Below are positions 30,673-39,381 of a stretch of DNA of 50,601 nucleotides, one piece after another. The notes under the pieces were generated by a model. The model saw only the letters and a program-made list of their open reading frames with translations. It did not search any database and was not told the DNA's origin. The DNA is from Paracoccaceae bacterium (GTDB taxonomy: Bacteria; Pseudomonadota; Alphaproteobacteria; Rhodobacterales; Rhodobacteraceae). Within the stretch, counting starts at the first letter, position 1. Every line of letters begins with the position of its first letter. The position numbers and the translations under genes were made by a program. Location: contig JAFIEF010000020.1 of the NCBI GenBank assembly GCA_020832655.1, forward strand, positions 1 to 50,601, in the 5' to 3' direction.

Positions 30673-30963
30673 TCAGACAAACATGCCCAAATTGTTGATC
30701 AGGATGATGCGCAACGCGATGATGATGATAAGCGCCACCAGCGGCGCCAGATCGATACCGCCCATATTGGGCAGGAACTGGCGGATGCGCTGATAGGCCG
30801 GTTCCAGCAAACGGTTCAGCCCGTCCCAGATCGACGCCACAAGCGGGTTGCGCAGGCTGATCACCTGAAAATTGATCAGCCAGCTTAGAATAATGTGCAC
30901 GATGATGATGAAATACAGCACATTCAGGACAAGCAGGATAATCTGGATAAGCGACAGCATCAT
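30673..30963 (-). CDS. YggT family inner-membrane protein
   Basis: A small membrane protein (96 residues) with two hydrophobic segments at residues 4-30 and 70-90, typical of the YggT family. The conserved linker WDGLNRLLEPAYQRIRQFLPNMGG includes the family pattern RxxxP. The function is not firmly known; relatives affect potassium handling or cell division and plastid nucleoid partition. AGAGG lies before tandem ATG codons at 30963 and 30960. It is immediately upstream of recQ on the same strand. Confidence 0.9.
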   Translation of the reverse strand: MMLSLIQIILLVLNVLYFIIIVHIILSWLINFQVISLRNPLVASIWDGLNRLLEPAYQRIRQFLPNMGGIDLAPLVALIIIIALRIILINNLGMFV

Positions 30964-31096
30964 GGGCCTCTTGGCTCGGGGTCTGGGGGGAAACTAGGGG
31001 TTGGCGCGGCCAAGAGCAACCATTTTGCCGCCCCCTGCTGGACAATCCCGCCCCTTTGACTAGGTAGGGGCAGGTTCACCGCACAAAGGCCAGCCG

Positions 31097-31870
31097 ATGC
31101 TTGTCACCCTGTCACCTGCGAAAAAGCTCAATTGGGCCGCCGCGCCATCGCCGCGCATGCTGACGACACCGCAGTTTCACGAAGATGCCACCCATCTGGC
31201 CGCGCTGGCGCTGGAGCAGGGCGCGGACGGGCTGAAAAAGCTGATGAAAATCAGCGACAAGCTGGCTGTGCTGAACCATGACCGTTTCGCAGCCTTCCAG
31301 CCCGACCCCGCGCCCGAAATGACGCGCCCCGCGGTTTTCGGCTTTGACGGCGACACCTATACCGGGCTTGATGCGCGCTCGCTTGACAGCGATGCGCTGA
31401 ATTGGGCTGGGTCGCATCTGCGTATCCTGTCGGGGCTGTATGGCGTGCTGCGCCCCTTTGACGCGCTGCAAGCCTATCGGCTGGAAATGGGCAGCCGACT
31501 GGGCGGGGCGCATGGGCGCTCGCTTTACGAGTACTGGGGCAGCAAGCTGGCCGAGGCGCTGAACGCCGATGCGCAGGCGGTGGGCGTCGACATTCTGGTC
31601 AATTGCGCATCAGAGGAATATTTCAGGGCGGTCGAGCGCTCCGCGCTGAAGCTGCGGGTGATCACCCCGGTTTTCATGGAAATCCGCGACGGGGCGGAAC
31701 CGAAGATCATCAGCTTCTTTGCCAAGAAGGCGCGCGGCGCGATGGCACGCTTCATCATGGAACACCGCCTGAGCGACCCGCGCGCGCTGACAGAGTTCGA
31801 CACCGCCGGGTATCATCATGACCCGGCGCAATCCACCCATGATCGTCCGGTCTTTCTGCGCGAAAGCTGA
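31097..31870 (+). CDS. yaaA: Peroxide stress protein YaaA (DUF328)
   Basis: The 257-residue sequence matches YaaA end to end, with the opening LVTLSPAKKLNW, the segment LSGLYGVLRPFDALQAYRLEMG, and the closing YHHDPAQSTHDRPVFLRES. In E. coli the protein lowers free intracellular iron during peroxide stress. The ATG at 31097 is preceded by AAAGG. It is flanked by convergent and divergent genes and is probably monocistronic. It ends 12 bp before the stop of the degenerate sugar dehydrogenase on the other strand. Confidence 0.93.
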   Translation: MLVTLSPAKKLNWAAAPSPRMLTTPQFHEDATHLAALALEQGADGLKKLMKISDKLAVLNHDRFAAFQPDPAPEMTRPAVFGFDGDTYTGLDARSLDSDALNWAGSHLRILSGLYGVLRPFDALQAYRLEMGSRLGGAHGRSLYEYWGSKLAEALNADAQAVGVDILVNCASEEYFRAVERSALKLRVITPVFMEIRDGAEPKIISFFAKKARGAMARFIMEHRLSDPRALTEFDTAGYHHDPAQSTHDRPVFLRES

Positions 31871-31881
31871 GAAGCGCAGCT

Positions 31882-33024
31882 TCACGCCGCCGAAGCGGCA
31901 GCTTCGGGGCGGGCGTAATGGTCGCGGGTGAACAGCTTGGCGCGGATATCGCCCAGTTCCGGGGCGGCGCGCTGGGTCACGACCATTTCGCAATCCTGTT
32001 TGAACTGCGCCAGCGCCGGGGCGTCGCCCAGCTGGATACGGGTGGGAATGCCTGCCGCTTCCAGCCTTTGCTTCAGCCGTTCCAGCGCGGCTGGCAAGGG
32101 TCCGGTCGGGCCGGGTTGGTAGATGCCCACAGCGCTGGGTTTGCGCGCCGTGATCTGGTGGGCAAGCGCGTCGCTGCGGGCAGTATGGGCCTGCTCCAGC
32201 CCCGACAATACCGGCAGGCGCGCGGGGTCCAGCTTCGCTTTCAGGCTTTGGGTGCTAAGCGGCAACATGCCATGCCCGAAACCGAAACAGGGGTTGTTGG
32301 CATGCGCCCCGATGCGCGGGTCAAGGCAGACGCCATCGATGATCTGGCGCGCATCCAGCCCGTGATGCAGCGCATAGCTGTCCAGCTCGTTGAAATAGCT
32401 GACGCGCGCGGCTTTCATCATGATCGACAGATGGCGCGTCAGTTCGGCTTCGGTCAGACCCATCTGGCGGGTCGGGATCGCTGCCCGCAGCGCCGCGCCT
32501 TGCAGCACATTCAGCACCCGCCGCCCCAGTGCGTGACGATCCCCCACGATCAGGAATTTGGGATAGAGATTGTCGCTGAGCATATGGCCTTCGCGGCAGA
32601 ATTCCGGGGCGTAGACGATCTTGGCACCTTTCAGTTCCACCCGCTTGGCCTCGCAATACCCCACCGGCACCGCCGAACGCACCACGATCGGGGCCATTGG
32701 CGCACGGCGCGCGACAAATTCAATGCGCGTATCCATCTCGACAAGGTTGAAATCGCCGCTTAGCGGATCGCGTGACAAGGGGGCCGAGATGAACACCATT
32801 TCGGCATCGGCAATGGCCTGGGCCGTGTCATGGACGGCGCGCAGATCCAGCCTGTGGCGGGTGCAGTAGTCGTCTAGCGCAGGGTCGTGCAGCCCGTATT
32901 CCCCGCGATTGATCGCCTCGATGCGGTCGGGAAGGGGGCCGGTCATCACAACCTGATGCAGCCGCGCCAGTGCCAGCGCATCCGCCATTGCCACACGCCC
33001 CAATCCGATAATTGCAATCTTCAT
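31882..33024 (-). CDS. Degenerate UDP-glucose dehydrogenase paralogue (probable pseudoenzyme)
   Basis: The 380-residue protein aligns almost without gaps to the neighbouring canonical enzyme, yet key residues are changed. The Rossmann motif GLGYVG is GLGRVA. By aligned number, catalytic C253 is M (GHML instead of GYCL), K197 is R, N201 is I, D257 is S and T118 is A. Outer structural motifs are kept, such as PEF(C)REG, DNLYP, GVCLDP and NNP(C)FGFG, and the frame is intact. That pattern indicates a maintained protein without dehydrogenase activity rather than a decaying gene. It is the last gene of the polysaccharide cluster, 112 bp after the canonical dehydrogenase. It might bind the active enzyme or a nucleotide sugar; both are inference. 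The start at 33024 has AAGG upstream. Confidence 0.85.
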   Translation of the reverse strand: MKIAIIGLGRVAMADALALARLHQVVMTGPLPDRIEAINRGEYGLHDPALDDYCTRHRLDLRAVHDTAQAIADAEMVFISAPLSRDPLSGDFNLVEMDTRIEFVARRAPMAPIVVRSAVPVGYCEAKRVELKGAKIVYAPEFCREGHMLSDNLYPKFLIVGDRHALGRRVLNVLQGAALRAAIPTRQMGLTEAELTRHLSIMMKAARVSYFNELDSYALHHGLDARQIIDGVCLDPRIGAHANNPCFGFGHGMLPLSTQSLKAKLDPARLPVLSGLEQAHTARSDALAHQITARKPSAVGIYQPGPTGPLPAALERLKQRLEAAGIPTRIQLGDAPALAQFKQDCEMVVTQRAAPELGDIRAKLFTRDHYARPEAAASAA

Positions 33025-33136
33025 TTTCAGATACCTTGTCTGTTGTTCTGCCCTGATGCCAAGCTGCCCGCAGAAAGCGGCAGCAATCGGCCCATTTGGT
33101 GCAATTTGTCTTCGATCCGGAATTGCTGCATGCGGA

Positions 33137-34303
33137 TCAGTCCGCCCCATAGATATCGCGTGTGAACACCTTGTCTGCATGCGGGCGCAACTGCTCGGTC
33201 CTGCGGTTGGCGACGATCATGTCGCAGCTTGCGGCGAAGCGGTCGAAATCCGGTTCCAGCCTGTGGCCCATGCAATCGCTGCCCTGCCAGGCCGGTTCAT
33301 GCACCACCATCTCGACCCCGCGCGCGGCAAGCTGGCGGATGATGTCCTGCATCGCGCTGGCGCGGAAATTGTCAGACCCCTGCTTCATAACCAGCCGGTA
33401 AATCCCCACCCGCCGGGGTGCATGGGCGGCAATTGCCTCTACCATCGCAGCCTTGCGCGCATCATTGCTGGCCAGCGTGGCCGAGACCAGCGCCTGCGGC
33501 ACATCATCGAAATTCGCGCGCAACTGCTTGCTGTCCTTGGGCAGACAATAGCCGCCATAGCCGAAGGACGGGTTGTTGTAGCTTTGCCCGATCAGCGGGT
33601 CCAGACACAGCCCGCCAATGATCTCTTCGGCATCCAGCCCCAGATCCATCGCCAGCGTATCAACCTCGTTGAACGCCGCCACGCGCGAGGCCAGATAGGT
33701 ATTGGCAAAAAGCTTGATCGCCTCGGCCTCGATCGGGTTGGTCAGCAGCACGGGCACATCCTCGACCAGCGCGGCGGCGCGCAGCAATTCGGCCACCGCC
33801 GCGCCGCGCGCACTGACCTCTCCCACCACAATACGCGAGGGGTAAAGATTGTCTTCCAGCGCGCGGCCTTCGCGCAGGAATTCGGGCGAAAACACAATGC
33901 GGTCCGTGCCGAATTCTGCACGGACCTGCCGGGTATAGCCCACGGGCACAGTTGACTTGATGATCATCGTCGCGCGATCATTCACGGCCAGAACCTGTGC
34001 AATCACCGCCTCTATGCTGGTGGTGTCAAAGGCGTTGGTGGCCGGGTCGTAATTGGTGGGGGTGGCGATGAAGACATAGTCGGCCCCGGCATAAGCCGCC
34101 TGTGGATCGGTGGTCGCGCGCAATGTCAGCCTGCCGCCATCCAGATGCTGCTGGCTTAGCGTGTCTTCAATCGGGGTGCGGCCTTCATTCAGCGCGGCCA
34201 CCCGCTGCGCGCAGATATCGACGGCGGTGACACTGTGCTGACGCGCCAGCAGGATGGCATTTGACAGGCCAACATAGCCCAGACCAGCTATCGCGATATT
34301 CAT
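33137..34303 (-). CDS. ugd: UDP-glucose 6-dehydrogenase
   Basis: Oxidises UDP-glucose to UDP-glucuronate with two NAD, supplying uronic acid for surface polysaccharides. The 388-residue protein has GLGYVG at 7-12, KSTVPVGY with T118, SPEFLREG with E141 and E145, AEAIKLFANTYLA with K197 and N201, and the active-site FGYGGYCLPKD with C253 and D257. The length equals E. coli Ugd. A GDP-mannose dehydrogenase (AlgD-type) is less likely because those are longer, but an exact substrate is not certain. AAGGAAGAG precedes the ATG at 34303. It lies 41 bp downstream of the export lipoprotein gene in the same minus-strand cluster. Confidence 0.9.
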   Translation of the reverse strand: MNIAIAGLGYVGLSNAILLARQHSVTAVDICAQRVAALNEGRTPIEDTLSQQHLDGGRLTLRATTDPQAAYAGADYVFIATPTNYDPATNAFDTTSIEAVIAQVLAVNDRATMIIKSTVPVGYTRQVRAEFGTDRIVFSPEFLREGRALEDNLYPSRIVVGEVSARGAAVAELLRAAALVEDVPVLLTNPIEAEAIKLFANTYLASRVAAFNEVDTLAMDLGLDAEEIIGGLCLDPLIGQSYNNPSFGYGGYCLPKDSKQLRANFDDVPQALVSATLASNDARKAAMVEAIAAHAPRRVGIYRLVMKQGSDNFRASAMQDIIRQLAARGVEMVVHEPAWQGSDCMGHRLEPDFDRFAASCDMIVANRRTEQLRPHADKVFTRDIYGAD

Positions 34304-34344
34304 TGTCGCTCTTCCTTCTGTCTTCAAAACGCTATTTTTCGATA

Positions 34345-35271
34345 TCACTCAAAACCGGCGGGGCGGGGATGAACCAACACGATATCGCCCTGCGCCAGCA
34401 CCATGCGCCCACCCACGGCCGGATCGCGCGCATCATCGGCGCGGAACTGATAGGCCGCGTCATCGCGGCGCAATTGCACCTCGCCCCCGCTGGCCCCGGC
34501 GCTGGCCAGAAGCTGCGCCAGCGTCACTTGTTGCTGTCCCAGATCGAACTGGCGGGGGGGGTACCCCGGAACATGCAGGCTGACGCCCTTGGGCTGCGGC
34601 TCGGGCCGGATGCGCGATGCCGCGCGCCCCACCTGCACCACATCGCCATCGCGCAGAACGGGCAGCGCTGCGCCGTGGCTCAGAAAGCCCTCCATATCGA
34701 CCGGAATTTCGCGCCCCGCGCGCAGGATCGTCACGCGGCGCTGGTTTGCGCCTTGTGCGAAACCGCCAGCGGCATTGATCGCGTCGATCACCGACAAGGG
34801 TTGCGTCGTCAGCGTCTGGCGGCTGGGGCGTGTCACATCGCCGATCACGCTGATCTGGCGGGCATTGTGTTCGATCACGCGCAGATCGATCTGGGGCTGG
34901 GGCAGATACTGGCGCAGGCGCTGCTTGATATCGGCACGGATGGTGGCGATATCGCGATCAGCGGCCAGGACACGGCCCAGAAACGGCACCTGGATCGCGC
35001 CGTCACTGTCCACCTGATAGCCTGCGGGCAGGGTCAGTTCAGGTGCATCGATGGCGTGGATTTGCAGCACATCGCCGCGCCCGACCAGATAGGCGGTGCC
35101 CGATTGCGCGGAAATCTGGTCAATATTGGCGGCGCTGACCGGGATTGCCATGCCGGTCGCAGCGTTGATGCTGCCGCCTTCGAACCCGGCCTGGCGCGAC
35201 ACCTCGGCGGTGTGGGTGGTGCAGCCGGCCACCAAGAACAGTGCGACGATGGCGGCGGATCTGGTTATCAT
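34345..35271 (-). CDS. Wza-like polysaccharide export lipoprotein (SLBB domains)
   Basis: A 308-residue lipoprotein with lipobox LVAGC (C17), an N-terminal polysaccharide-export domain (about 68-145, YLVGRGDVLQI...GAIQVPFLGRV), and SLBB-type repeats after it (GDVTRPSRQTLTTQPLSVIDAI and a second unit near 235-300). Family members form or extend the outer-membrane exit channel for exopolysaccharides. It lacks the C-terminal amphipathic helix of full-length Wza as far as can be seen, so it may need another porin. AAGGGA precedes the ATG at 35271. It is 16 bp downstream of the synthase gene. Confidence 0.88.
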   Translation of the reverse strand: MITRSAAIVALFLVAGCTTHTAEVSRQAGFEGGSINAATGMAIPVSAANIDQISAQSGTAYLVGRGDVLQIHAIDAPELTLPAGYQVDSDGAIQVPFLGRVLAADRDIATIRADIKQRLRQYLPQPQIDLRVIEHNARQISVIGDVTRPSRQTLTTQPLSVIDAINAAGGFAQGANQRRVTILRAGREIPVDMEGFLSHGAALPVLRDGDVVQVGRAASRIRPEPQPKGVSLHVPGYPPRQFDLGQQQVTLAQLLASAGASGGEVQLRRDDAAYQFRADDARDPAVGGRMVLAQGDIVLVHPRPAGFE

Positions 35272-35287
35272 GGCAAATCCCTTTCCC

Positions 35288-36844
35288 TTATCGGCCATAG
35301 ACCAGCTCGGCGGCGGTCGTATCGGCGGCAAAATCAAAACGGTTGGAAGCGGCGGTCACATTGGTCAGCATCACCACGACAGCGACAAACCCGGCCAGCG
35401 AGGCAGACAGCATCAGCTTGCTGTCAGCGCGCACCAGCGCCGCGCGGTCCACCGCCGCGCCGCCGGTATTCTGGCGGGTCCATTTCTGCACATTGGGGTT
35501 GTGGTTGACGAAGATCTTGATCGCGGCCCCGACAATCTGGCCATAATAGGTCAGCGCCGGAAAGATCGGGTGCCAGCGCCGTGCAATCAGCCCGGTCAGC
35601 CCCGAATGCACAGTTCGGGTGAAGGAAATCCACAGCAGGAAGATGATGAAGAAGACCGGGTCATGGATCAGCGCGGCCAGCCCGAAAAACACCACCCCCA
35701 TCAGCGGCGTCCACATCGACGCCTTCTGATCCAAGAGCGCAAGATAGGTGAACCAGCCCAGCTTGCGCGGCCCCAGCCGCAGCGCCTTGGCCCCGCCGCG
35801 CACCATATTGCCGAACCAGCGCTTCTGCAGCCCTATGGTGTCGGCCAGAAAGCCCTTGCCGGGCAGGGATTCAAGACAATAGATCACCTCGTCGGGGACA
35901 TAGGTAATGTCCCAGCCCGCCTCTATCACCCAGCGCCAGGTCGATTTGTCATCGCCCGTCAGCATCACGATGCGCCCCAGACGGGGGTGATGCAGCACAT
36001 CTTCCAGCAGATTGGCGGCAAAGTTCGGGTGCATCAGGATCTGGCTGCGAAACATCGACCAGCGCCCGGTCAGCACCAGCACCCGGCCCGACATCGCCAT
36101 CGACGACATGTAGACATGGCGCTGCGCCATGCGCAGCCGATACCATTCACGGTCCATCATCCCGCCTGCAACCAGCGGCGTGTTGTCCACGGTCAGCGCG
36201 CCGATATTGGGCTGGTGCAGCAAAATGGGTGCGGTGCGGCGGATCAGGCCGGGTTGCACCAGCGTGTCGCCATCCATCAGAATGCCGGGGCAATCAGGCG
36301 GCACGCCCAACTCGCGCAGCCGCGCCAACGCATCGGCCATTGCCGAACGCTTGCCGGTGCCGTCCTGGCGGGTAAAGGCCAGCCTGATCTGCCCCAGCGG
36401 GTCCGTGTTGCGGTGAACATGCGAAATCACCGCTTCATCCTGATCCGACGACACTGCCGCCACCACGGTTCCGCCGCCGCCATTGTCCAGAATATCGCGG
36501 AACAGATTGGCATAGACGGCGGCATTCATCGCATCGCCCATCTTCCAGCTTAGAATCACCACTGCGACATGGCGGTGCTGGACGCTGGCATCGGCCTCGG
36601 CGCGGCGGCGGATCATCGGGAATACCTTTCGCGTGAAGGCCCAGGCGCGCAGCATATGGAAGCCGCCCCAGGACCAGCGCCACAGCCCGATCAACCCCAG
36701 CGTTGCAATAAAGGCCGTATCCGTGGTTGATAGCGCGCGCGCCGGCACAAAGCTGAGCAGCACCAGCACCAGCGCCAGCCAGCCCAATCCGGTCAGCCAG
36801 ACTGACAGCCGCGAGGAATTGCGCAGATGCGGGCGGTCTGACAT
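35288..36844 (-). CDS. Processive GT2 polysaccharide synthase, Alg8-like
   Basis: A 518-residue inner-membrane glycosyltransferase. Two N-terminal membrane helices (about 13-35 and 44-62) precede a GT-A domain with DGD at 191-193, TGDD at 296-299 as the acidic catalytic motif, and QKRW at 340-343, the processive-synthase QxxRW motif. More membrane segments follow (about 365-410, 425-448 and 478-498). The TGDDKSTW segment and overall layout resemble the alginate polymerase Alg8, and the next gene upstream resembles Alg44. The polymer is unknown; the clustered UDP-glucose dehydrogenase suggests a uronic-acid-containing chain. The start follows GGGGGGA and lies 2 bp after the previous stop codon. 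Confidence 0.88.
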   Translation of the reverse strand: MSDRPHLRNSSRLSVWLTGLGWLALVLVLLSFVPARALSTTDTAFIATLGLIGLWRWSWGGFHMLRAWAFTRKVFPMIRRRAEADASVQHRHVAVVILSWKMGDAMNAAVYANLFRDILDNGGGGTVVAAVSSDQDEAVISHVHRNTDPLGQIRLAFTRQDGTGKRSAMADALARLRELGVPPDCPGILMDGDTLVQPGLIRRTAPILLHQPNIGALTVDNTPLVAGGMMDREWYRLRMAQRHVYMSSMAMSGRVLVLTGRWSMFRSQILMHPNFAANLLEDVLHHPRLGRIVMLTGDDKSTWRWVIEAGWDITYVPDEVIYCLESLPGKGFLADTIGLQKRWFGNMVRGGAKALRLGPRKLGWFTYLALLDQKASMWTPLMGVVFFGLAALIHDPVFFIIFLLWISFTRTVHSGLTGLIARRWHPIFPALTYYGQIVGAAIKIFVNHNPNVQKWTRQNTGGAAVDRAALVRADSKLMLSASLAGFVAVVVMLTNVTAASNRFDFAADTTAAELVYGR

Positions 36845-36846
36845 GC

Positions 36847-38412
36847 CTATCCCCCCAGAAAGCTGGTCAGCCAGCCCAGCGGGTCCAGCGTGCGCACAGT
36901 GACAGAACCGCTCATCCCGATCCCTGCATCCAGCGGGCGGGCGGGCATCACCTCGATCCGGGCATAGCGTTCAGCGGCGAAGATTGCGCTGCTTAACCCG
37001 GCAAAGCCCGCGCGCGCGACATCATAGCTGATGCGCGTCACCTGGCCTGAGATCTGCTGGCCATTGGCCAGACGGATATCGGCGCGGTCGCCTTCGCGGA
37101 TACGATGCGCCTGTTCAGCCAGGATCAGCGCATCAACACTGCGCGCCCCGCCCCCGGCCATAACGAATAGCGGTTGTGCCGGTTCGGCCCATTCGCCCGC
37201 GACGCGCGTGATCTGCGTGACCTCGCAATCACAAGGCGCAGTGACAGGAACGCCGATGCCCTGCGCTTCCATCCTTGCATAGGCCAGCGCGATCTCGTCG
37301 CGCAGATGCGCCAGACGCAGATCCAGCGTCTCGGGCGTTTGCGCCGCATGGCTGCGATGCCCGGTGGCCATGCCATGATCCTGCGCGGCCTCGAAAGCCT
37401 GAAGCCTGGTGTCTGCCGCTGCCAGATCATTCTCTGCCCCCAGCACCACGGCGCGCTGACGCGCGCGTGCCTGCTGGCGTTCCAATGTCGGCAGGCCGGT
37501 CGATTCCAGTGTCGCAAGCTGCGCGCGTTCCAGCGTCAGACGCTCGCGCGCGCGGCTTACCGCCGATGTCAGCCGCGCATGCTCGGATGTCCCAAGCTGC
37601 GCGTCCAGCGCCTGCTGGCCCTCCAGCAGGGTTTTTCGGGCGCGCAATTCGGCCTGCTCTGCCTCCAGCGCGCGCAGCCGGTCCTGAAGCGCCTCGGTCC
37701 GGGTGTCATGATCGGGCGGGCGCAGATAGCCCAGCACCTGACCCTTGGTAACATGCGCGCCCTCGCTGACATCGATCTGGCTGACCATGCCCGCCGCGGG
37801 TGCAGAGACACTGGCCGCCGCAGCCGTGACCGCCGCATAGCGCGATTTTACCGTGGTGAATGCCCCCAGCGCCATGTAGGCCGCAGCACCCAGCGCGGCA
37901 CAGGCCAGCGAGACCTGAAACCATGTGCGAAAGCCTAGCATGCGCTGCGTGGTCTCTTGCCGCTCGACGCGGGTTTCGCGCGCGTCATTCAGCAATTGCG
38001 TCAGCGACAATTCCTGCCGGGTGACAGCGTAATCGACAATCCGGTGCAGCAATTCCGCCTGCGCGCGGCCAAGATCGATGAACTGGTAGCGCAGCGCCTG
38101 CGCGTCGCCTGCATCAAGGCGGCACTGCACGGCCATCTGAATGCGGGTCACACCCTGACCGATCAGCAGTGCCACATCCAGCACCCGGCCCAGACCGGGG
38201 GCCAGAACACTGGGAATGGGTTGCGCCAGCGTGAAGCCATGCACATCCCAATGCGCAACGGGGTATTCCACCCCGTTCCAGACAATGCTCATCGGTTCGG
38301 AAACTGTGACAGGTCTGGCGCTTGTCAGGGCTTGTCGAGGCAGCATAGCCTGCCGCCCCGGCGCAGAATGCAGGTCTGCCTGACCCGACCCGTATAGCAC
38401 ATCCATCGTCAT
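36847..38412 (-). CDS. PilZ-like/HlyD-like membrane fusion protein, Alg44-like
   Basis: The 521-residue protein begins with a domain in the position of PilZ (about 33-135), then a membrane helix (about 163-187), a biotinyl-lipoyl-like strand pair (about 195-235), a long coiled coil (about 235-380), and the second barrel half ending in GMSGSVTVRTLDP. This is the Alg44 plan, in which cytoplasmic c-di-GMP binding activates the partner synthase. Here the c-di-GMP signature looks lost: the RxxxR position reads LTSAR and the DxSxxG position reads HWDVHG. It is the first gene of the minus-strand cluster. AGGA lies nine bases before the ATG at 38412; another ATG follows at 38406. Confidence 0.82.
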   Translation of the reverse strand: MTMDVLYGSGQADLHSAPGRQAMLPRQALTSARPVTVSEPMSIVWNGVEYPVAHWDVHGFTLAQPIPSVLAPGLGRVLDVALLIGQGVTRIQMAVQCRLDAGDAQALRYQFIDLGRAQAELLHRIVDYAVTRQELSLTQLLNDARETRVERQETTQRMLGFRTWFQVSLACAALGAAAYMALGAFTTVKSRYAAVTAAAASVSAPAAGMVSQIDVSEGAHVTKGQVLGYLRPPDHDTRTEALQDRLRALEAEQAELRARKTLLEGQQALDAQLGTSEHARLTSAVSRARERLTLERAQLATLESTGLPTLERQQARARQRAVVLGAENDLAAADTRLQAFEAAQDHGMATGHRSHAAQTPETLDLRLAHLRDEIALAYARMEAQGIGVPVTAPCDCEVTQITRVAGEWAEPAQPLFVMAGGGARSVDALILAEQAHRIREGDRADIRLANGQQISGQVTRISYDVARAGFAGLSSAIFAAERYARIEVMPARPLDAGIGMSGSVTVRTLDPLGWLTSFLGG

Positions 38413-38700
38413 CCGCGACTGTCCTGACCTCGGCGCTGCATCGAATACGCAGCAGGCTTGTTAACCTTGTCCGACAGGATTTCGCGCGGAATTATGGCAC
38501 CAATATGCAGCCTAGCGGACAAAACCAAGACAATCGCCTGATTGTTTCTGTTTGAGCAATCAATGCAGCCGGAAAATCCGAGGCGGCCTTGCCCCGCCCG
38601 CGCGGGTTTCTACCCTTGACCGGGGGGCGTTGAGGTCGCACAAAGACGCGATCACGCCCGCCCCTGTTACCTGTTTTCCTGTTCGGTTGTTGAACCCGCA
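38413..38700. other. Divergent intergenic region between the polysaccharide cluster and surf1
   Basis: 288 bp without a gene. It must hold the promoter for the five-gene minus-strand cluster and that of surf1. The part near 38470-38570 is richer in A and T than the surroundings. I could not identify a convincing consensus promoter, operator or structured RNA. Confidence 0.5.
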
Positions 38701-39381
38701 ATGCTTAGACAGATTATCCTTCCGGCCCTTTTCGGACTGCTTGGCACCGGCGTTCTGGTCAGCCTCGGGGTCTGGCAATTGTCGCGCGCGGCGGAAAAAT
38801 CCGCCCTGATCGCCGAGATGGAGGCGCGCATCTTTGCCGCGCCGGTGCCGCTGCCCGATACCCCGAACCCAGAGGCGGATCGCTACCTGCCCGTCACCCT
38901 GTCGGGCCGCTTCACGGATGAGCACAGCTTCGCAATGGCTGCCCAACGCGCGCAGGGGCCGGGGTTTCACCTGATCGCTGTGCTGGAAACCGAAACCGGC
39001 GCGCGCGTTCTGGTGGATCGTGGCTTTCTGCCCGAAGCCGCGCGCGGCGGGTTGGCGCCTGCCTCTGGCCCGGTCACGCTGGAAGGCAATCTGCACTGGC
39101 CGCGCGACGCCAATCGCCACACCCCGGATTTCGATGCAGGGCGCAATCTGTTCTTCGCCCGCAACGTGCCGGAACTTGCGCAGCATCTGAATACAGATGA
39201 GATTCTGGTCGTGCTGCGCCGCACCAGCGAAACCGCCCCCCCCGCCGCGCCGGTGCCAGTGAACGAGGTGCGCATCCCCGACAACCATATGGGCTATGCG
39301 ATACAGTGGTTTTTGATGGGCCTGGCCTGGGCGGGGATGACAGTCTTCCTGATCTGGCGTATCACGCGACAACGCGACTGA
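38701..39381 (+). CDS. SURF1 family cytochrome oxidase biogenesis protein
   Basis: A 226-residue SURF1 protein with one membrane helix at each end (about 4-24 and 200-219) and the conserved domain between them. Typical features are LGVWQLSRAAEKSALI after the first helix, VDRGFLPEAARGG in the middle, and NHMGYAIQWFLMGLAW before the second helix. SURF1 helps insert haem a into subunit I of aa3 cytochrome c oxidase. In many relatives it ends the ctaC-ctaB-ctaG-ctaE operon; here the upstream neighbour is the polysaccharide cluster instead. thrC follows after 14 bp. Confidence 0.93.
   Translation: MLRQIILPALFGLLGTGVLVSLGVWQLSRAAEKSALIAEMEARIFAAPVPLPDTPNPEADRYLPVTLSGRFTDEHSFAMAAQRAQGPGFHLIAVLETETGARVLVDRGFLPEAARGGLAPASGPVTLEGNLHWPRDANRHTPDFDAGRNLFFARNVPELAQHLNTDEILVVLRRTSETAPPAAPVPVNEVRIPDNHMGYAIQWFLMGLAWAGMTVFLIWRITRQRD

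Follow-up and report, generated by a model that had tools for sequence, protein, structure and literature searches.

A catalytically dead UDP-glucose dehydrogenase paralogue as a candidate partner subunit of the adjoining enzyme in a bacterial polysaccharide operon

UDP-glucose dehydrogenases (UGDs) are dimers whose two active sites influence each other, and alginate-type operons combine Alg8 and Alg44 with an NDP-sugar dehydrogenase. The structures closest to the proteins described here are those of the short-type UGDs from Klebsiella (PDB entries 3plr, 3phl, 3pid and 3pjg) and Streptococcus pyogenes (1dli and 1dlj). According to published work, cited here and below by PMC number, Lys320 of the S. 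pyogenes enzyme (position 307 in the present numbering) binds the diphosphate and Arg327 binds NAD, and the equivalents of Tyr10 and Asp29 act in thioester hydrolysis and at the NAD ribose, respectively (PMC4794789). In the same enzyme, 3.1 Å separate Arg244 (position 237) of one subunit from the glucose held by its partner (PMC4794789), and Arg260 of human UGDH, also at position 237, reaches across the dimer likewise (PMC3184952). Human T244 (position 221), in a helix packing on the neighbouring subunit, and I255 (position 232) are interface residues (PMC12493151); the human numbering is offset by 23 over residues 185-261, by alignment.

Dead paralogues that partner an active enzyme have been described in other pathways. 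The trypanosome AdoMetDC prozyme activates its partner by relief of autoinhibition, with structures shown (PMC5201418), and in trypanosomatid deoxyhypusine synthase an impaired active subunit joins a dead paralogue in a heterotetramer, with 3000-fold activation found by experiment (PMC3663545). The locus described here resembles both in its pairing of an enzyme with a dead paralogue. It differs from the first in that the heterodimer is proposed from sequence, with an arginine acting in trans, and from the second in the enzyme concerned. Searches of a paper library with few subscription journals gave no description of a catalytically dead partner of a UGD, and nothing specific to such an operon in Rhodobacter relatives was found among the matches listed. 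A non-catalytic protein considered as a precedent was set aside, since it is of the haloacid-dehalogenase type and not a UGD (PMC12632274).

The window, i.e. the whole stretch of 50,601 nucleotides from a Paracoccaceae bacterium that was analysed, contains five minus-strand genes close together, in the order HlyD-type, GT2, Poly_export, UGD and PAR, the last being a catalytically dead UGD paralogue. The features are as follows.

36847-38412, minus strand: HlyD-type membrane-fusion protein, 521 aa, PilZ domain not detected; presumably Alg44-like
35288-36844, minus strand: GT2 polysaccharide synthase (Pfam Glyco_tranf_2_3), which we take to be Alg8-like
34345-35337, minus strand: polysaccharide export protein (Poly_export, SLBB)
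33137-34303, minus strand: the 388-aa UDP-glucose 6-dehydrogenase (UGD); catalytic residues acting within its own subunit are intact, the trans-acting Arg237 is Leu
33593-33595, minus strand: codon of UGD Leu237, a position with Arg in 101/101 unpaired UGDs
31882-33024, minus strand: the 380-aa UGD paralogue PAR, catalytically dead by residue comparison and UGD-like by predicted model and fold match
32440-33024, minus strand: Rossmann domain of PAR (residues 1-195), with 13 residues that are invariant in PAR and specific to it; stand-alone copies elsewhere retain this part
32281-32406, minus strand: PAR residues 207-248, putative retained dimer face and DPRIG loop, 209/240 UGD-conserved cells kept
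32314-32316, minus strand: codon of PAR Arg237, equivalent to S. pyogenes Arg244 and human Arg260

As in alginate-type operons, a GT2 synthase, an HlyD-type protein and a dehydrogenase are united in the window; unlike in those operons, the dehydrogenase belongs to the short type (388 aa) and is accompanied by a dead twin. No Rfam element reached gathering scores in 30800-38800, a promoter and terminator scan of 31600-38900 gave nothing above shuffled sequences, and a sequence search at E 0.001 retrieved no solved structure related to the GT2 synthase. The end of PAR lies 11 bases from a convergent YaaA gene (31097-31870, plus strand), and no terminator-like site was reported between them.

The two adjacent proteins had been read from the sequence as aligning with nearly identical numbering, and this was borne out by an alignment that is gap-free before residue 303, with identity at 136/385 positions (35%). 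The window UGD was matched over its full length by the Klebsiella UGD (E 5.5e-136); it scored 489 bits against the NCBIfam equivalog, below the cut-off of 757, and 314.5 against TIGR03026, above the cut-off of 189.8. The sequence-only reading had credited this upstream protein with every catalytic residue, which holds for all residues acting within their own subunit but not for the arginine that acts across the dimer, which is Leu237 in UGD and is kept by PAR. All six changes that had been named for PAR were present (G12A, T118A, K197R, N201I, C253M and D257S), and further losses comprise Y10R, D29G, T83L and the Lys307/Arg314 loop, plus two C-terminal deletions. Throughout the ten full-length PARs found, Cys253, Asp257, Asn201 and Thr118 are absent (0/10 each), Lys307, the residue of UDP-diphosphate binding, is deleted (10/10), and the NAD site has A12 and G29 in 10/10 and Arg314 in 0/10. 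PAR thus lacks the catalytic and NAD-binding residues of a working UGD, the exception being Lys197, present in 4/10.

The fold of PAR is nevertheless predicted to be that of a full UGD, in agreement with the earlier suggestion that structural motifs are retained. The Klebsiella UGD matched PAR over residues 1-371 (E 3.8e-66), and Pfam detected the N and central domains above cut-off but not the C domain. The AlphaFold model of PAR (mean pLDDT 87.6, pTM 0.82) found its best PDB matches in the four Klebsiella UGD entries, with TM-scores by query length of 0.80-0.88, and a three-domain fold of the UGD superfamily is accordingly the predicted one. PAR shares with the short-type UGDs the fold, the domain order, the dimer-face sequence and the DPRIG loop, and differs from them in the absence of Cys253, Asp257, Asn201, Thr118, Lys307 and the NAD aspartate Asp29.

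Next, co-occurring pairs were searched for in related genomes, and a UGD-PAR pair was found in 10 genomes of two genera: 5/37 of the window's genus, the window counted, and 5/18 of a second genus. In 10/10 cases the full-length PAR lies directly downstream of a UGD. No other full-length PAR was found in samples of 394 family and 390 order genomes, which are draws from larger groups and for which scoring covered the best 4-5 candidates of each genome (8 in the N-domain search of the family). The tblastn matches used were those spanning at least 300 query residues, and the proteins compared were those of at most 420 aa. The separation of PAR from other matches was wide in the order sample, where the four PARs reached 606 bits or more, against 378 for the match that followed. 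Plasmids were considered as carriers and rejected: 465 plasmid records matched, every best place had less than 60% identity, and the 15 listed had at most 38.9%, so that, as far as seen among the matches listed, these are matches at the level of UGD.

Ten PARs, the ten UGDs adjoining them and 101 unpaired UGDs were then compared column by column. The unpaired set is a subset of the family UGDs (41 from fetched loci and 60 from the match list), and "unpaired" was assigned by genome search, meaning that the genome gave no PAR-level match or had its PAR beside another UGD. Eight of the ten paired UGDs are intact; those of two genomes of the second genus, G430 and G437, lack Cys253, Asn201 and Asp257. 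Four columns, Leu214, Tyr217, Arg237 and Lys357, combined at least 95% conservation in the unpaired UGDs with presence in 10/10 PARs and in at most 6/8 intact paired UGDs. They were found in 100, 98, 101 and 96 of the unpaired UGDs and in 2, 0, 6 and 0 of the intact paired ones, respectively (Fisher p 9.5e-8, 4e-10, 0.005 and 3e-9, uncorrected for relatedness), and several of the changes in paired UGDs may each have arisen just once, on a single branch. The two losses of Arg237, to Leu in the window and to Asn in G431, fall in different genera. Four genomes (G030, G430, G437 and G444) have an unpaired UGD elsewhere in addition to the pair; in the two of these UGDs that were compared, Leu214, Tyr217 and Arg237 were kept in both and Lys357 in that of G030 only.

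In the PAR model, residues 214, 217 and 220 belong to a helix spanning 190-220 and residue 221 lies just past it; judging by the helix register, 214 and 217 would be turned towards the partner subunit. Lys357 lies outside 207-248. At position 232, Val or Ile is present in 101/101 unpaired UGDs and Leu in 8/8 intact paired ones, with Val in five, Ile in three and Leu in two of the PARs. Counted by blocks, PAR kept 87% of the UGD-conserved cells in 207-248, compared with 59% in 1-160, 52% in 161-206, 30% in 249-298 and 36% in 299-388, a pattern that argues for retention of the dimer face in particular. The corresponding values for the intact paired UGDs were 97% (1-160), 91% (161-206), 84% (207-248), 82% (249-298) and 76% (299-388), which suggests that their N-terminal part is best kept and that they are relaxed from 207 onward, not at the interface alone. 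Columns kept in 10/10 PARs and changed in UGD clustered weakly in 207-248 when the first 41 unpaired UGDs were used (4 inside, 1 outside, p 0.04); the same count with 101 unpaired UGDs gave 3 inside and 1 outside. This block pattern would fit the prediction of a heterodimer with one active site and, in part, also the drift of a UGD from a side lineage.

Taken together, the residue patterns, the adjacency to UGD in 10/10 cases and the purifying selection described below suggest that PAR is a non-catalytic, prozyme-like partner subunit of the adjoining UGD, to which we give a probability of roughly 0.6. UGD and PAR would pair through the retained face of the central domain, and Arg237 of PAR would enter the single active site, that of UGD, which in the window has no arginine of its own. 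The pocket of PAR would perform no oxidation and probably hold no UDP-glucose, because the diphosphate lysine is gone. By completing or activating UGD, PAR would control how much UDP-glucuronate is available for polysaccharide synthesis, and its N-domain, without the NAD aspartate, would probably receive a second, regulatory ligand or target. As in known prozymes, PAR is a paralogue of the enzyme that it would serve and has lost the catalytic residues. The regulatory subunit proposed from the sequence would best be a subunit of UGD itself. If so, sugar-nucleotide metabolism in bacteria would have a prozyme of its own, and one gene could set the flow of UDP-glucuronate into extracellular polysaccharide. 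It would also be a natural one-site pair with the lent arginine mainly in the other gene, and would allow cooperation to be tested subunit by subunit.

Several findings stand against a simple heterodimer of this kind, among them the relaxation of the paired UGDs beyond the interface. Arg237 is present in 6/8 intact paired UGDs, so that not every pair can depend on its lending by PAR. In two genomes, G430 and G437, both members of the pair are dead, the UGD having C253F, N201A, D257V/I, K307G and R367A, and the PARs there still have Arg237 and Tyr217, so that catalysis in trans is not the sole reason for their retention there. A further one is the occurrence of PAR N-domains on their own, without a paired UGD.

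Within the window's genus, G011, G016, G034 and G032 each have a short, stand-alone copy of PAR, and none of these genomes has a close GT2 synthase. Their positions are as follows.

L064 8316-9155, L065 1403-2155, L067 7843-8760 and L069 1-396: shortened PAR genes, central dimerisation domain missing (degenerate in G016), no operon in these genomes

The product in G011 (279 aa) matches PAR over about its first 200 residues; that in G016 (250 aa) matches over 245, the last ~50 poorly, and a degenerate stretch of the central domain remains, as in recent decay. In G034 (305 aa) the central domain is missing, and G032, cut by the end of its contig, has the form common to G034. The neighbours of the shortened genes differ among three loci, as judged by eye. 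A search with the N-domain gave at least 345 bits in 8/37 genomes of the genus, the next match being at 154, and in the family sample G000 and G257 alone passed E 1e-58.

These copies bear on a second reading, in which PAR is a regulator acting through its remodelled N-domain, a putative binder of a non-NAD nucleotide or a protein, and pairing with UGD is of secondary weight or, in some lineages, gone. The substitutions D29G and G12A strip the domain of NAD-type features. Sixteen PAR-invariant columns occur in at most 5% of the unpaired UGDs, and 13 of them lie in residues 1-195, among them A12, D15, T28-G29-P30, L83, E96, R100, P112, R116 and A118; across three stand-alone copies without operon or paired UGD, 39/39 of such N-domain residues were kept. 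For G034 compared with G032, whose truncated form is the same, dN/dS was 0.30 over 121 codons. Pairwise values for the stand-alone N-domain were 0.09-0.24 in 17/18 pairs, the remaining one being saturated, but these latter values may reflect the time before truncation, and the copy in G016 looks like recent decay. The N-domain may thus have a ligand of its own and seems useful by itself at least in G034 and G032, and this therefore limits the view of PAR as mere dimer filler. As a full account of PAR, however, the second reading appears unlikely, since all ten full-length PARs adjoin a UGD and have kept the dimer face.

The gene neighbourhood was considered with regard to the other role that had been proposed, a nucleotide-sugar sensor for the polysaccharide synthase. 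In the window's genus, the 5/37 genomes with PAR are the same 5/37, the window counted, that have a close GT2 synthase (at least 86% identity), and all five share the gene order HlyD, GT2, export, UGD, PAR; G005 also gave a GT2 match, with relatives at 32% only. In the second genus the whole operon is present in G257, and G444 has the part present on its contig; the contig end in G440 falls inside UGD. GT2 synthase and export genes thus precede the pair in 7/10 cases, which would suit such a sensor, as would E141, N243, N244, F247 and R367, kept in 10/10 PARs. On the other hand, PAR has lost Lys307 by deletion and also Arg314 in 10/10, and the missing diphosphate-binding lysine makes a UDP-sugar sensor less likely. 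No close relative of the window's GT2 synthase was found in three genomes with the pair: in G431, UGD and PAR follow an HlyD-type gene and no GT2 match was obtained genome-wide at E 1e-40, and in G430 and G437 the pair stands without the other operon genes nearby. The sensor role is disfavoured on these grounds and improbable. The HlyD-type gene before the pair in G431 (L116 8129-10516, G431:C2) encodes 795 aa, compared with 521 aa in the window. HlyD, GT2 and export genes are also present in G434 (L196 13846-17877, G434:C230; genome 80% complete), with no UGD or PAR match in 20 kb.

A heterodimer could also be inhibitory, with PAR acting structurally or as a competitor to lower the activity of UGD. 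The sequence evidence for it is the same as for an activating partner, and a dimer with PAR would have at most one active site; however, two intact UGDs from different genera no longer have an arginine of their own, which speaks for reliance on a partner instead, and we regard inhibition as about as improbable as the sensor.

Selection on PAR was estimated from pairwise dN/dS (Nei-Gojobori), a rough measure here, as many of the pairs are close to saturation at synonymous sites. The values were 0.14-0.46 for PAR (19 pairs at ≥55% identity) and 0.07-0.41 for the paired UGDs under the same identity limit, and those of the closest pair, G430/G437, were 0.17 and 0.14, respectively. Neutral evolution of PAR does not agree with these values, and a search for orthologues carrying the catalytic Cys and Lys revealed none with Cys253; Lys is present at position 197 in 4/10. 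The proposed selection for a non-catalytic role is therefore supported by both the dN/dS values and the loss of Cys253, Asp257, Asn201 and Thr118 in 10/10. A decaying duplicate, which the lost catalytic residues and the shortened copies in G011, G016, G034 and G032 might suggest, is ruled out for the full-length copies by ten open frames in two genera, their dN/dS and the PAR-specific invariant residues, and is hardly credible for PAR as a whole.

For the doubly dead pairs (L114 3113-10840, G430:C6, and L115 1432-9192, G437:C33), dN/dS between the two genomes was 0.14-0.17. Beside these pairs lies an HlyD-type protein of an RND-type efflux pair (Pfam); the other neighbours are presumably a TetR-like gene on one side and the AcrB-like gene of the efflux pair. 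More tentatively, the whole may be viewed as a two-gene UGD with half-of-sites behaviour fixed, in which one subunit would do the chemistry while the dead twin would lend the substrate-binding arginine across the interface and contribute a new regulatory N-domain, also set free as a protein by itself. In G430 and G437, on this view, both twins have lost catalysis and now stand between the TetR-like and RND-type genes.

In favour of the partner-subunit reading, separate trees for PAR and for the paired UGDs agree on the pairs G013+G018, G030+G035, G431+G444 and G430+G437; against it, they place G000 differently. In a large quick tree PAR fell within the clade of paired UGDs, close to the dead ones from G430 and G437, whereas in a smaller, more careful tree PAR and the paired UGDs each formed one clade (paired UGDs, support 85/93); we suspect long-branch attraction behind this conflict. 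Elsewhere in the family, six loci with a distant GT2 relative (35-39% identical) were read in other genera; in five of them it adjoins a dehydrogenase of the UGD superfamily, G182 being the exception, and these dehydrogenases are 438 aa long.
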